38,097 nucleotides of DNA from Ignavibacteria bacterium. GTDB lineage: Bacteria; Bacteroidota; Ignavibacteria; Tepidaquicellales; OLB5. The stretch's first letter is position 1, and the number at the start of each line of letters is the position of its first letter. The notes beneath the pieces were generated by a model, which was not told the origin of the DNA, searched no databases, and was given only the letters and a program-made list of their open reading frames with translations. Below, piece after piece: positions 31,440 through 38,097 of this stretch. The stretch covers positions 1 to 38,097 of the forward strand of contig JAUQWQ010000227.1 of assembly GCA_030835085.1 (NCBI GenBank), given 5' to 3'. The translations under genes were made by a program, and so were the position numbers.

Positions 31440-32345
31440 CTAATCAACTTTCATAACTTTATTGCTTTTTATAAACCGCACAACATCTTCGCGGGTTGTG
31501 TTGGGCGAAAAATGACTGACCGCCATGTGAATATCATCAAGGTTATAACCGCCTTTTGATTTATTTTTTTCGTTTTCGGGCGAAGTTTCCGCAAGGCTTT
31601 TACGCACAGATTCAAGCTGTTTTATCCAGCCGGGTGCAATATATACTCCTCGTCTGTACATATCTGATTCATTTAGAAGGATGGTCTCCATGTTGAACCG
31701 GAAGATCTCATCCTTGCTTTTACCGCCTGTTTCACCGGATGCAGCCATGATATCAAAAAAGCTTTTTATTAGACCTTTGTTCACGGGGAAAACATTGCCT
31801 TCCATATCAATCCTGATGGTTCTATCCTTACTAATATTTGCAATATGTGAAAGCCTGTAAAAGAACTTTCGTATGTTGCCTTTGAACTTTACAGGCTCTT
31901 TGAGGTTTTGCTTTGCAGGCAATTCCCCGTTTCCTTCGGAGTTAACATCGGTTTCGTCCTCATTAAGTATTAACGGGTTTAAAGGTTTACCGTTAGAGCT
32001 GAGTATATATTTAACTTTGTTAAGCCTTATTGTTGAATAACTGAAACCAAGCTCAACTGTCATATGGTTCTTGATGAAATCAATTGTTTTACCCGCTTTA
32101 AGGAGCTCATTTACAGCATCAACTTCTTTGCGGCTGATCTCTACAGTGCGGCCTTTGGATTCATAATCTTTGTACGAGCCGGGTACTTCTTTGGAAAGCT
32201 CATTATAAAGTGTGGATCTTGAAATTCCGTGGAACTGCATAATACCGTTTAATACCTTTGTGTATCCGGAGGTTCCTTTGGCATGTGCAATTGATTTGAG
32301 CAGAAGAATATCTTTGTGAAGCTTTTTATTGAAAGGTTTTTGCAT
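31440..32345 (-). CDS. Uncharacterised protein with HTH-like segment
   Basis: 301-aa ORF; HTH-like GISRSTLYNELSKEVPG; no family recognised. Confidence 0.65.
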   Translation of the reverse strand: MQKPFNKKLHKDILLLKSIAHAKGTSGYTKVLNGIMQFHGISRSTLYNELSKEVPGSYKDYESKGRTVEISRKEVDAVNELLKAGKTIDFIKNHMTVELGFSYSTIRLNKVKYILSSNGKPLNPLILNEDETDVNSEGNGELPAKQNLKEPVKFKGNIRKFFYRLSHIANISKDRTIRIDMEGNVFPVNKGLIKSFFDIMAASGETGGKSKDEIFRFNMETILLNESDMYRRGVYIAPGWIKQLESVRKSLAETSPENEKNKSKGGYNLDDIHMAVSHFSPNTTREDVVRFIKSNKVMKVD

Positions 32346-32501: not shown

Positions 32502-33503
32502 TTATATACTTAACAATGGTGCGTATTTCTGATAACTGATATTGCCTTTATCTGCAATATTATCCTTCCAGCCTGTCTCGTTATGACTTAGGTCTATCAA
32601 TTCCTGTGTTTTCTTAAACTTGAAGTCTTTACTTATTTGTTTTAATATTTCTATTTCATCATTGCTGAATAATGTACTGTCAAAATCTCTTATTGGAACA
32701 AACTTATCTACTTCTTTATCACCAAGATTACAAGTTTTATTCTCTACGTATTCTTCCTCCCACAATTCGCCAAACAATCTTTTATAATTATCCAGGACAG
32801 GTCCATTTTCTATCGCGCTATATGAATAACCGCTTATTGGACTGCCCAGTAATTTAAAACTAAGAAAATCTGAATAGAATAAATATTTATTTAATCTTAC
32901 AGTAAAAGCTCTTTCGTTTTCTTTTAAAAAGAAGACGATCATGTTCGCCAATTTTGCAAAATGACGAAATGAATATCCAGTAAACTGATCTATTTCGTTG
33001 CTGTAATTCCTTAATAAACTCTTTAGGATTTCTTTTTCGCTTTTATTTTGAATGCCTACTCCAATAAATTTAAGATCATTTATTTCTCTATCAGAAAAAA
33101 GTTTGGATTTTTCTGCAAGATCAATGAAGTTATCGGGATTTGTAATCAAATCTAATGTCTTTGCATTTGATTTGCTTGGTATTTCACCTTTTTCATAATT
33201 TCTGTAAACATTTTCGCCAAAGCCTAATACTTCACTCATTTTTACGGGAGTAATACCATACTGTTCACGCAATTGTTTTATCTGTTCAGGAAATAAAATA
33301 TTGTTTTTTTCCCTGTATTGGTTATACAATTGTTTTAATGTCAGGTCAGTTGCATCCGCAGTTGTGAATTCTTTTTTCGTTTCATCGCAAACATAATAAT
33401 AATCATATACATCAAATTCTTCTTTACGGAATGACATTTTTTTAGGTGTAACATGCAGCACCGCATTGCAGTTTGCAAACGGACTTTCTATAGTCTTTTT
33501 CAT
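32502..33503 (-). CDS. Antitoxin: degenerate MqsA/YgiT-like N-terminus, HTH, C-terminal Panacea/SocA (DUF4065)-like domain
   Basis: HTH LREQYGITPVKMSEVLGFGENVYRNYEKGEIPS; then FRHFAKLANMIVFFLKENERAFTVRLNKYLFYSDFLSFKLLGSPISGYSYSAIENGPVLDNY. Confidence 0.85.
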   Translation of the reverse strand: MKKTIESPFANCNAVLHVTPKKMSFRKEEFDVYDYYYVCDETKKEFTTADATDLTLKQLYNQYREKNNILFPEQIKQLREQYGITPVKMSEVLGFGENVYRNYEKGEIPSKSNAKTLDLITNPDNFIDLAEKSKLFSDREINDLKFIGVGIQNKSEKEILKSLLRNYSNEIDQFTGYSFRHFAKLANMIVFFLKENERAFTVRLNKYLFYSDFLSFKLLGSPISGYSYSAIENGPVLDNYKRLFGELWEEEYVENKTCNLGDKEVDKFVPIRDFDSTLFSNDEIEILKQISKDFKFKKTQELIDLSHNETGWKDNIADKGNISYQKYAPLLSI

Positions 33504-33548
33504 TTTGTTGCTTTCTTTATTTGTCCTTTTTTTTGAGCAGTATTGAAC

Positions 33549-33896
33549 CTATGCCAGTGGGAATTTCATTTCATATTCAGCAAAATGAAATGAAATTAAA
33601 ATACACGGTTTACCCGATAAACCATAATTTATTTTAATGTAAATCTGTTTAGAGGATATTTCTGTACCGAACTCCCAATAATCGCCGCTATTTTGAGCAT
33701 CAGTAACCGGACCTCTAAAATAATTTTTGTATGTTAACTTGTTAATTTCATCAATATAAAAGGATTTAGAGCTCAGGATCTCCAGCTCAGCCAGTGTTTC
33801 AAGATTCTTTTCTCTTCTTTCAATTACCATATCAAATGTAGTGATCTTAGTTTTCAAATCACTTAAAAATCTCTCAACCTCATCTGCCGTAGCCAT
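33549..33896 (-). CDS. Putative MqsR-like toxin
   Basis: 115 aa; pattern EINKLTYKNYFRGPVTD...GDYWEFGTEISSKQIYIKINYGL resembles the MqsR C-terminal region; directly upstream of the antitoxin; AGGAGG just before ATG 33896. Confidence 0.6.
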   Translation of the reverse strand: MATADEVERFLSDLKTKITTFDMVIERREKNLETLAELEILSSKSFYIDEINKLTYKNYFRGPVTDAQNSGDYWEFGTEISSKQIYIKINYGLSGKPCILISFHFAEYEMKFPLA

Positions 33897-33920: not shown

Positions 33921-33949
33921 ATAATACACTATTTAACATAATTTGTCAA
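33921..33949 (-). promoter_or_regulatory. Canonical sigma70-like promoter TTGACA-N17-TATTAT of the toxin-antitoxin operon
   Basis: Minus strand TTGACA (33949-33944), 17-nt spacer, TATTAT (33926-33921), about 25 nt before the toxin ATG. Confidence 0.7.
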
Positions 33950-34151
33950 GAGAAAAGTGGGAAAAATTCAAAAAGGATGATTATTTAACGGAATATCACA
34001 CTTTATAGTGTTAATATAGGCTTATTTTGATACACGGTGGAGAGAATGCGATGCGGAATTATTTTACGGGTAAACTGAAGGGGTGCAGTTGAGGCTCTGC
34101 CAAAGCATACGTAGCCAACTAAGGCGACAAGAAACTTATGAATTCTATTTC

Positions 34152-34940
34152 TCATTCTGAATCTTTATATTTTTCATTCAATTTATCCAATATTTTTGAT
34201 ACTAATGGGTAATTGACTATTTTTTTTTCTGATATCCTTACAATCAAATCATCTTTCAGTTTATCTTGTCTTAATAAACAATCTTGAAGTTTTGTTTGGA
34301 AATCAGCGTTTAAGACAAATGCTTTATATTTTGTTTCCCATTCCCCGTATGATTTCAAGATCAGACATATAATCTCATTAATCATACCAAGTATATCTCT
34401 GGTATAATCATGAATGTAATTATCAAATACTTGGGTCTTTATTCTGCCATCTATAATACTTACATTATATCTAGTTGAAAATATGTTGCCATGGGAGTAA
34501 TATGCATTTATTATTTGCTTATAGCCTTCCACAATCTTTGATTTTTCAGGGTATTCTGATTTAAAAAAGACATATGCCTTATCAGCCAATAAGTTACTAT
34601 CGAAATCTACAATATCATTCTCTTCGCGGATTATTTTGTATTCCTTTTCTTTTGGGTGTACCAATGAATATGCAAAAAGCACAAAATTCTCTAAAGCATG
34701 TCTTAATAAAAGGTGTGTAACTAAAGTATGGCGACGTATACAATTTAGAATTATCAAATGAAAATCTTTAAATATCTGAGTTTCAAAATAGTAACAAACT
34801 TCATGGTTAACTGAAAAGGAGTTAATAGATTGGAGCAATTTTAACAAATCAAGGGACAAATAATAATTGTCTCCGAGCTCAAATTTAGCTTTATCGGTAA
34901 GTTTGTTTTCTTGTTCTATTATCCAATTAAGATCTATCAT
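34152..34940 (-). CDS. Uncharacterised alpha-helical protein, third gene of the RM operon
   Basis: ATG at 34940 overlaps the upstream TGA (TGATG); helix-rich, RRHTLVTHLLLRHALENFVLFAYSLVHP. Confidence 0.7.
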   Translation of the reverse strand: MIDLNWIIEQENKLTDKAKFELGDNYYLSLDLLKLLQSINSFSVNHEVCYYFETQIFKDFHLIILNCIRRHTLVTHLLLRHALENFVLFAYSLVHPKEKEYKIIREENDIVDFDSNLLADKAYVFFKSEYPEKSKIVEGYKQIINAYYSHGNIFSTRYNVSIIDGRIKTQVFDNYIHDYTRDILGMINEIICLILKSYGEWETKYKAFVLNADFQTKLQDCLLRQDKLKDDLIVRISEKKIVNYPLVSKILDKLNEKYKDSE

Positions 34941-35659
34941 CAATTGATTTCCTCTATTTTGATTTCATTTTTAAGCATTGTCTTTTCATCATCATTCCAA
35001 AAACCAGTAAATTCCATCTTGTACCTTCTGCTAATAGGTTTTCCGTTTTCACAGCCTGCAGTTACTTCAAAAGTATAACAACCGCTTTTTAGGATATGTC
35101 TTTTATCATTTGTCTTCCAATATACATTAAAAGCAAATAAACATTCGTATTCTTCTAAAACAAAATCTTGGTTATCTTCTCCAGGATTCATTCTTCTAAA
35201 TTCCGGTTCCATGATATAGCCCAAATTACAGTATTGATAAGTATTTGGAGAAATACTTTTCCAATACATCCTTGGTACATAATTTCCACTTTCGGTCAGA
35301 AAGAGGGTACTCCACTCTAGATTATCTAATGGTAAGTTTATACTTTCTCCAGTTTCTTTATGCACATCTTTTAATATTAACTCTACATTTTTTGCGCTAA
35401 TTCTACCATTATTTAAAATTTGAAATCTAAAATAATATGTCTGCCACTTTTTTATATGTCGATTTTTGAATCTATCTTCAATAACCTGCAAAGAGGTAGC
35501 ACGATGACAATGGGGAGGTTCAACTGTCATTTTTATATCTAATTTTGGTCCTCTAATTTTTTCTCGTATGCTATCTTGAAAAGCAGCTACAATCGCTAAT
35601 AGAATTGTAGCAATTGTCAATCCTGCTGTCCACCAAACCATTGCCCAATCAGCTGACAT
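34940..35659 (-). CDS. Uncharacterised membrane-anchored protein, second gene of the RM operon
   Basis: N-terminal TM WWTAGLTIATILLAIVAAF and a soluble domain; ATG 2 nt after the RM stop codon. Confidence 0.7.
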   Translation of the reverse strand: MSADWAMVWWTAGLTIATILLAIVAAFQDSIREKIRGPKLDIKMTVEPPHCHRATSLQVIEDRFKNRHIKKWQTYYFRFQILNNGRISAKNVELILKDVHKETGESINLPLDNLEWSTLFLTESGNYVPRMYWKSISPNTYQYCNLGYIMEPEFRRMNPGEDNQDFVLEEYECLFAFNVYWKTNDKRHILKSGCYTFEVTAGCENGKPISRRYKMEFTGFWNDDEKTMLKNEIKIEEIN

Positions 35660-35661
35660 TT

Positions 35662-38097
35662 TTACACCCCTTCCACAATCTTTATTTCTTCATCCGTCAA
35701 ACCGTACAACTCATACACCAATGCGTCAATTTTTTTATCGGTGTAGGTTATGCGCTGCTTTAACCGTTCCTGCTCCTCGCCGGGTTTTGACTTTTGCAAC
35801 TCTTTGTTCAGCTCAAGCATCGTTTCAACATGTTTAACTATTTCATCATGTTTTTTCTTTTCTGACAGATTGGTGAAGTCGATTGTGCGAATTGGTAAAT
35901 TAGATATTTGGACTCCTTTAATTTTGGGAAAAGTGGTTTTTCTATCTGAAAAGACTTTACTGAAATAATAGAACATCAAGCGTGAATTTATTAAACCTAA
36001 AATGTACTTCAATGTGAGATCCTTTCGTAAAGGCAACAATATGTATACACTCTGATCTACATAATATTGATTTTCGTCATAAGTGCCATAAATTTTTGTC
36101 TTACCCATTACTTGGCGTACTAACAGCTTTTGAGGCGCTACAAAAATTGATTCGTCTCTAAATGCTTGATTTGTAAACTTAATTTCTAGTTTTTTATCAT
36201 AACAAACCCACTTATTATAATAATCAATTGCAAAGGGTTTTACACTAGCACCCAATAGAAATCTCTTATAAAAATTATTCACCTTTTTATTGGTGACAAA
36301 ATCTTTACGTACTTTCATACCATTTTTAATAACGCAGCATTCCTCTAATTTCAATGAATTTTTCAAAATAGTGTCAAACATAGAAATGCTAGTGGTATCT
36401 AAATTAGTATTGAAGTTATAATCCTGTATATTGAATAACTGTGATTGTGTAATAATATTTGAAGGCGTAATGACAGTTCGCAAGATTTTGCTGGGTACTT
36501 CACCGATAGATATTCTTTGATTAAGGATTTGTTTTAAATCCATTTCCCGTCTTAGAATAAATATTGATGTATCAACGGAGGCTCCTTCAAAAACATTATC
36601 CTTTAGGTCAGCTATTACTTCAATTGCTGTGTTTTCTAAAACATATTTGCGCAATCTAGAATAATACGTATTTGTTAATATTCCATTAGGTATTATAAAA
36701 CCCAAACAACCTTGGTTTCTAAGCAAAAGAATACCCTTATTAAGAAAGAACGCAAACGTATCTGGTTGATAAGAAGCTGATTCATATTTGTTAACTAAAT
36801 AATTTTTAATATTATCTTCCAAGTGTTGACTTCTTATATACGGTGGATTACCAATTACGCAATCAAATCCACCCTGTTTAAAAACTTCAGGGAATGCGGC
36901 TTGCCAGTTGAAAGGCTTAATTTTTCGTTCTGTACCTGCAAATTCAAGCTCACCTTCATAAAAATCCAGGTCAATCAGTGAATTACCGCTTTTGATATTA
37001 TTTTCAAGCGTTGGTAAAATACGCTCATGCATAAAGCTCATTGTTTGCTGGACTGATGCAAGTGTTTCACCTTCCATGCACTTTAACAGCAGGCTAAGTT
37101 TTGTAACTTCCGTTGCCTGTGTATCAATATCAACACCGTATATGTTATTGATGAGTATTTTTTTCTTCTCAGCGGTTGTTAGCCTGCCATCTGGGGTTAA
37201 GGTTTTTTCTTTTCCTCCCTTACCCATGTAATAACTCAAATGCCAGTCAAGCAAGTATTGGTATGCACCTATAAGAAAGCTTCCGCTTCCGCAGGCAGGG
37301 TCAACAATTTTTATCTTCTCTACTTCTTTCGGTGTTTTACCTTCAATAAGTTTGCCAACTGTATTTTTTACAATGTAATCAACAATGTATTGCGGAGTGT
37401 AATATACTCCTCCTGCTTTTCTTACCTCCGGCTTTTCTTCAATCTTGGCTTTATGGCTTGGTGTAAGCCTGATGACTTTGCCCAGAAATTGCTCATAAGC
37501 TGAGCCGAGTATTTCAACGGATAAAACTGAAAATTCATAAGGAGAAACGGGGTAATACAGCTCTTCGATAATTTTCTTTAATACTTTGTTGTCAATATTC
37601 AGTTTACTTGTGGTATTATCCTTGGCAAGATCAAATAGACCTGAATTATATTTTTTATCTGCTTCTTCGAAATATACAAAGAGATTTTTGTACACACCCC
37701 ATTCCTTTAGCGGGCCATTTAAGCAATATTTTAGTTTTTCATATGGCTCAACGCCTCTATCTTCGCATATCCTTAAGAAAATAATTCTGTCGAGTGTCTG
37801 CTGTACCGCATAGTTAAGCTGGTCTTCATTCAGCTTTACATTATTTATGCTTATTGTTTCAGCCAGTAGTTTACGCCACTCGTTAAGTGATTCCAAAAAT
37901 TCCTTATCGACAGTTGCTGTTCCTTTTTTGCCGGTATCACTTAATACGAACTTATCAAAGCTGCCTTTTAAAACCCGCTCTTTTGAAAATGTATCCCACA
38001 GGAAATCAAATTCAGTAATGTATTCTTTGTAATTCAGGTATTTTATTCTTGCAGCAGATGCTTTATCGGTGGCTTTGGGTTTTTTGGTGCAGTCATA
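35662..38097 (-). CDS. Type IIG (Eco57I-like) restriction-modification enzyme, N-terminus beyond window
   Basis: DPACGSGSFLIGAYQYL, DCVIGNPPYIRSQ, C-terminal TaqI-like specificity region. Frame stays open past the track start (37896, TTG) to the window edge: YDCTKKPKATDKASAARIKYLNYKEYITEFDFLWDTFSKERVLKGSFDKF. Confidence 0.92.
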   Translation of the reverse strand, partial: YDCTKKPKATDKASAARIKYLNYKEYITEFDFLWDTFSKERVLKGSFDKFVLSDTGKKGTATVDKEFLESLNEWRKLLAETISINNVKLNEDQLNYAVQQTLDRIIFLRICEDRGVEPYEKLKYCLNGPLKEWGVYKNLFVYFEEADKKYNSGLFDLAKDNTTSKLNIDNKVLKKIIEELYYPVSPYEFSVLSVEILGSAYEQFLGKVIRLTPSHKAKIEEKPEVRKAGGVYYTPQYIVDYIVKNTVGKLIEGKTPKEVEKIKIVDPACGSGSFLIGAYQYLLDWHLSYYMGKGGKEKTLTPDGRLTTAEKKKILINNIYGVDIDTQATEVTKLSLLLKCMEGETLASVQQTMSFMHERILPTLENNIKSGNSLIDLDFYEGELEFAGTERKIKPFNWQAAFPEVFKQGGFDCVIGNPPYIRSQHLEDNIKNYLVNKYESASYQPDTFAFFLNKGILLLRNQGCLGFIIPNGILTNTYYSRLRKYVLENTAIEVIADLKDNVFEGASVDTSIFILRREMDLKQILNQRISIGEVPSKILRTVITPSNIITQSQLFNIQDYNFNTNLDTTSISMFDTILKNSLKLEECCVIKNGMKVRKDFVTNKKVNNFYKRFLLGASVKPFAIDYYNKWVCYDKKLEIKFTNQAFRDESIFVAPQKLLVRQVMGKTKIYGTYDENQYYVDQSVYILLPLRKDLTLKYILGLINSRLMFYYFSKVFSDRKTTFPKIKGVQISNLPIRTIDFTNLSEKKKHDEIVKHVETMLELNKELQKSKPGEEQERLKQRITYTDKKIDALVYELYGLTDEEIKIVEGV

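Follow-up and report, generated by a model that had tools for sequence, protein, structure and literature searches.

The window, that is, the whole 38,097-nucleotide stretch of Ignavibacteria DNA analyzed here, corresponds to the complete contig C145 and ends in a run of minus-strand genes formed by a Type IIG restriction-modification (RM) gene, two genes for uncharacterized proteins (P2 and P3), a toxin-antitoxin (TA) pair, and an uncharacterized gene at the outer edge of the island (Table 1). For the full RM gene, the window was joined to contig C22, which begins with the same 141 bases in which C145 ends, a sequence without a further copy in the genome. Through this overlap, the 5' end of the gene, the upstream sequence called for in the initial annotation, was recovered, giving a protein of 946 aa. 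The join is supported by the continuous 961-aa orthologue found in G272, a genome of the same genus, which is 71% identical over its full length.

The frames of RM, P2, and P3 all lie on the minus strand at the positions first given for them, and the close coupling originally described is seen directly. The TAA of the Type IIG gene (35664-35662) is separated by a gap of 2 nt from the ATG of P2 (35659), and the TGA of P2 (34942-34940) overlaps the ATG of P3 (34940-34938) as TGATG (34942-34938). P3 had been placed in the range of 263 aa; the frame is present, being of 262 aa from its ATG, whereas the value of 263 includes the immediately preceding TTG codon. A purine-rich, Shine-Dalgarno-like stretch for the P2 start sits within the 3' end of the RM gene (GGAAGGGG), and GAGGAAA is found immediately upstream of the P3 start. 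Both genes are AT-rich, with a GC content of 32% for P2 and 28% for P3 versus 36% for the window, and relatives with 43-49% identity to P2 and 44% to P3 support that they are truly coding. Gaps of 10 nt or less are common locally, being found in 10 of the 34 pairs of neighboring ORFs on one strand across the joined 52 kb, so the spacing of RM, P2, and P3 argues for a shared transcript and not for a shared mechanism; co-transcription or read-through expression of the three genes is probable.

Table 1. Features of the island, in coordinates of the window
Feature	Positions	Strand	Basis or remark
301-aa uncharacterized protein, outer edge of the island	31440..32345	-	Relatives beside RM in G272 and G304
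Antitoxin: MqsA-type/HTH N-terminal part plus SocA/Panacea domain	32502..33503	-	Pfam and NCBIfam scans
Predicted 115-aa toxin paired with the Panacea antitoxin	33549..33896	-	No family match; 99% identical protein in G272
Promoter-like site of the TA pair, TTGACA-17-TATTAT	33921..33949	-	11/12, best in region
Exchanged segment: P2, P3, and about 185 nt	33967..35660	-	DNA alignment with G272; family scans
P3, 262 aa, soluble, predicted all-helical	34152..34940	-	ORF, alignment, low-confidence model
P2, 239 aa, strand-rich domain behind a single TM helix at the N terminus	34940..35659	-	ORF, TM prediction, alignment, model
Type IIG RM gene, 3' 811 of 946 aa	35662..38097	-	PADLOC, Pfam, motifs; first 135 aa are C22:546 down to 1
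RM specificity half, unrelated or weakly related to the G272 orthologue	35895..36838	-	DNA and amino acid alignment

A complete Type IIG enzyme

The Eco57I-like Type IIG identity proposed for the RM gene is borne out by PADLOC (REase_MTase_IIG, E=5e-157), by Pfam (Eco57I and N6_Mtase), and by the motifs PD..ExK at residue 79, DPACGSG at 401, and NPPY at 552. Endonuclease and N6-adenine methyltransferase are fused in one chain, as defines the type, and a TaqI_C domain (Pfam, E=1e-19) provides the protein with its own target-recognition domain. The enzyme shares with Eco57I-like Type IIG enzymes the single chain, the N-terminal PD..ExK, the N6-adenine methylase motifs, and the TaqI-like specificity domain, and nothing notable differs in the enzyme itself. 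Upstream, between RM and the ruvB cluster, genes for a 276-aa outer-membrane-like protein and a histidine kinase (L003 875-3412, about 38831-41368 in joined coordinates) are present here and in G301 and absent from G272 and G309.

P2 and P3

In agreement with its description as a membrane-anchored protein, P2 has one predicted TM helix (residues 6-24), whereas its close relatives in G272 and G319 have two. Its strand-rich domain carries a conserved R-MYW--ISP-TYQYCNLG motif. Positively charged residues flank TM segments on the cytoplasmic side (the positive-inside rule), and the stretch REKIRGPKL follows the TM of P2, so this domain is probably cytoplasmic. The structural model, with one TM helix and strands, reaches a pLDDT of 55, a modest value, and its best Foldseek matches, generic Ig-like beta-sandwiches, have E>0.005, low TM-scores, and no significance. 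Both proteins had been described as unfamiliar, and this holds: Pfam, PADLOC, NCBIfam, and PHROGs contain no usable match for P2, and for P3 there is none in Pfam or PADLOC, none above the NCBIfam cut-off, and nothing usable in PHROGs. Also, PDB sequence searches with the profiles of both proteins gave no meaningful match.

Relatives of P2 are mostly solitary beside ordinary genes; in G319 the relative lies between housekeeping genes, and the Chlorobia-like ones are solitary. In G272, a gene for a 212-aa helical-looking protein, with no detectable homology to P3, lies 7 nt after the P2 relative (L013 9165-10569), and the membrane-plus-helical layout is repeated there. Among the distant P2 relatives, one precedes a GmrSD Type IV restriction gene by 63 nt (L017 1594-4341), and another comes directly after an Unstab_antitox gene, in the usual place of the toxin gene (L014 7871-9178); an Unstab_antitox-like gene is also located upstream of the one in L015.

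For P3, no TM helices are predicted, and the AlphaFold model obtained from the single sequence is all-helical, as the initial annotation had expected, its pLDDT of 42 being too poor for a fold search. P3 as a query retrieved nothing from genome contigs, viral contigs, plasmids, or phages. The relative from G337 used as a query gave a weak plasmid match in Caulobacter henricii pCB4 (E=7e-3; E=1e-5 in the profile comparison), and the three proteins share the conserved residues RRH, LRxxxE, and K..IN....H. The plasmid relative is found near an AbiE-type gene, and the G337 relative lies 206 nt upstream of an MjaI-type RM pair. These neighborhoods point to defense by guilt by association, which is not proof. 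The region around the G337 relative (L036 2267-9424) contains two methyltransferase systems, an MjaI-type endonuclease, an HNH gene, and a 421-aa protein without an assigned family. A profile match to P3 in G148 was rejected because the gene in which it lies is unrelated and lipoprotein-like, and marginal matches in G317 and G327 were rejected as well.

Exchange of P2-P3 in a relative of the same genus

The same locus is present in G272, with the RM gene, the TA pair, a 298-aa relative of the 301-aa gene, and a 954-aa gene. A comparison of both loci at the DNA level reveals that homology stops at the stop codon of the RM gene (35661, equivalent to L037 7518) and restarts 70 nt before the toxin start, in the promoter region of the TA pair (33966, equivalent to L037 8671). 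Between these breaks there are 1,694 bases here, with P2-P3, versus 1,152 in G272, where the replacement is a 341-aa gene with PD-T4-1-like (E=1e-10) and HNH or Type IV-like features. This swap of P2-P3 for a different predicted nuclease gene, seen in one genome pair, argues for an exchangeable slot and not for a fixed three-part machine. At the orthologous site of four other genomes of the genus there is no RM island, the flanking genes being about 2.3 kb apart, with about 1.5 kb of that interval not readable.

The RM proteins of both genomes are 94-100% identical in most 50-residue blocks up to residue 550 (about 97% over the N-terminal 550 aa), whereas from residue 550 to about 850, in the specificity half, identity falls to 12-50%, being about 90% again in the last 78 residues; outside the specificity half, the DNA of the gene is 88% identical. 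As judged from these alignments, both the specificity half and the cargo differ between the two relatives, with the N-terminal part of RM and the TA pair in common. At four-fold degenerate sites, the differences amount to 36% in the N-terminal part of RM and to 47% in the 301-aa gene, whereas the flanking core genes reach 51-63%. In contrast, the TA pair (32502-33896) differs at 3-5% of these sites, with 98-99% protein identity, which points to a recent and separate exchange.

The TA pair had been presented as adjoining the module. The pair is present, but it lies 255 nt beyond P3, with a history of its own, and is best kept apart from the P2-P3 unit because it has its own promoter-like site, the best in a region where the total of such sites is near the shuffle expectation. 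The antitoxin matches Pfam SocA_Panacea (E=3e-17) and TIGR03830 (E=2.5e-14, below its cut-off). An antitoxin with HTH and Panacea domains and a small upstream gene for a predicted toxin are the features shared with PanTA systems (PMC8832971), although the present 115-aa predicted toxin has no recognized family and the pair is separate from the P2-P3 coupling. Beyond the pair, the family of 279-301 aa at the outer edge recurs beside RM in three genomes (31440-32345 here, L037 10288-11184, and L038 745-1584).

Neighbors of the RM gene in other genomes

Among 44 genomes of the order, RM relatives are present in eight others, P2 relatives in G272, G319, and G328 (a fragment), and a P3 relative only in G337. 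Twelve other RM loci were opened, 10 of them with a readable 3' flank, and neither P2 nor P3 is found beside RM in any of the 12. Conversely, this RM gene is beside none of the three close P2 relatives nor the one close P3 relative; in G272, the RM orthologue and the P2 relative are on separate contigs, and five distant P2 relatives from another family of the phylum are all away from this RM gene. The co-occurrence of the three genes, proposed as a check in the initial annotation, is thus restricted to the present locus in the genomes surveyed.

The 3' side of the RM relatives holds different genes. For example, a Shedu SduA gene (E=1e-32) is located 47 nt away in G310, an AAA+ gene 109 nt away in G328, and two YhcG/DUF1016 genes, at 7 nt, in G160. 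In G303, G014, and G184 C2, the neighbors are proteins without an assigned family; in G304 there is an opposite-strand gene, and nothing is close in G184 C1. In G323 about 420 bases of the flank can be read, and the contigs of G393 and G264 stop there. Nuclease genes are the 3' neighbors in three of the 10 evaluable loci and look over-represented in this small sample. The defense setting first suggested for the locus is upheld. The slot genes include Shedu, YhcG, and HNH/PD-T4-1-like genes. About 5 kb downstream of the RM relative in G328, a Cas9-like N-terminal frame was recognized by eye (L042 10548-11000).

Discussion

The gene layout, the complete Type IIG gene, the exchange of the slot with one relative, and the lack of a conserved trio are all observed. 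We favor, with moderate confidence, a modular defense island in which an exchangeable slot lies behind a self-sufficient Type IIG gene and P2-P3 would be cargo acting independently of it. Going by its domains, the Type IIG enzyme would be the self-sufficient core, methylating its own recognition site and cutting unmodified DNA. The slot would start behind the RM stop codon, with its genes expressed by read-through from the RM transcript. P2 would be an inner-membrane protein whose beta domain faces the cytoplasm, and a tentative guess is that P3 could be a soluble helical protein, either an effector or an adaptor, for which P2 acts as a holder or a sensor, leading to a second, infection-limiting layer. 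That P2-P3 are defense cargo is probable, following a trend in a small sample; against it, several slot genes have no known function, the relatives of P2 are mostly solitary, and no homology puts P2 or P3 in a known defense family.

A rather unlikely alternative is that P2 and P3 are independently mobile neighbors by chance that do not work together and may have no role in defense. P2 relatives without P3, a P3 relative without P2, and the solitary P2 genes of G319 and the Chlorobia-like genomes would agree with this; nonetheless, the TGATG overlap implies co-translation at least, and the P2 of G272 again has a helical-looking gene of similar size next to it, although not detectably a P3 homologue. 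It is less likely that P2 serves as a membrane platform for helical effectors that can be exchanged (P3 in this genome and the 212-aa protein in G272), the two genes forming an anti-phage module carried as cargo behind restriction genes.

The composite three-gene system of the initial annotation, in which P2 and P3 would be partners of RM, for example, a membrane death switch held by the intact RM enzyme and freed when a phage disables it, is more doubtful still. The tight coupling of the three genes, the position of the G337 relative of P3 upstream of another RM pair, and the precedents of PrrC-PrrI and at least 16 RM-linked HEPN clades (PMC3710099; PMC3506569) are in its favor. However, the linkage is conserved in none of the 12 other RM loci (10 with a readable 3' flank), RM and P2 are apart in G272, where P2-P3 is replaced at the RM locus, and tight spacing is common locally. 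Homologues occurring mostly without the RM gene had been named at the outset as the finding that would tell against a composite system, and the relatives of P2 and P3 do lie away from it. PrrC, an anticodon nuclease latched by the PrrI Type Ic RM system (PMC3506569, PMC3710099), resembles the present case in being an accessory gene inside an RM transcription unit and a possible second line of defense; nonetheless, PrrC has an ABC NTPase, a HEPN domain, and a conserved linkage, whereas neither such domains nor such linkage are detectable for P2 and P3. Least probable is the suggestion that P3 is a HEPN ribonuclease toxin: the all-helical prediction, an R-x5-H in P3 (RHTLVTH), and an R-x4-H in the G337 relative recall the conserved Rx4-6H motif of HEPN proteins, whose genes often accompany RM systems (PMC3710099), but this spacing is unconserved among the P3 relatives, with the histidines in different columns and none there in the Caulobacter protein, and neither Pfam nor PADLOC links P3 to a HEPN family.

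The exchangeable slot that we favor shares with the modular defense islands of E. coli (PMC10121019) and Pseudomonas (PMC12629846) the interchangeable defense genes at one chromosomal site and the islands that only some of the relatives possess. It differs from them in that the exchanged piece extends from the RM stop codon to the TA promoter and that the host is of the Ignavibacteria type. Since accessory toxins in RM loci are an old precedent (PMC3506569, PMC3710099), the kind of arrangement is known, and the P2 and P3 families are the new part. What had been a vague composite operon is narrowed to a cassette of two genes whose borders are defined and which trades places with a gene for an HNH nuclease, and the case indicates that close coupling to an RM gene says little about a joint mechanism. 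Moreover, two uncharacterized protein families, P2 and P3, are named as candidate defense cargo.
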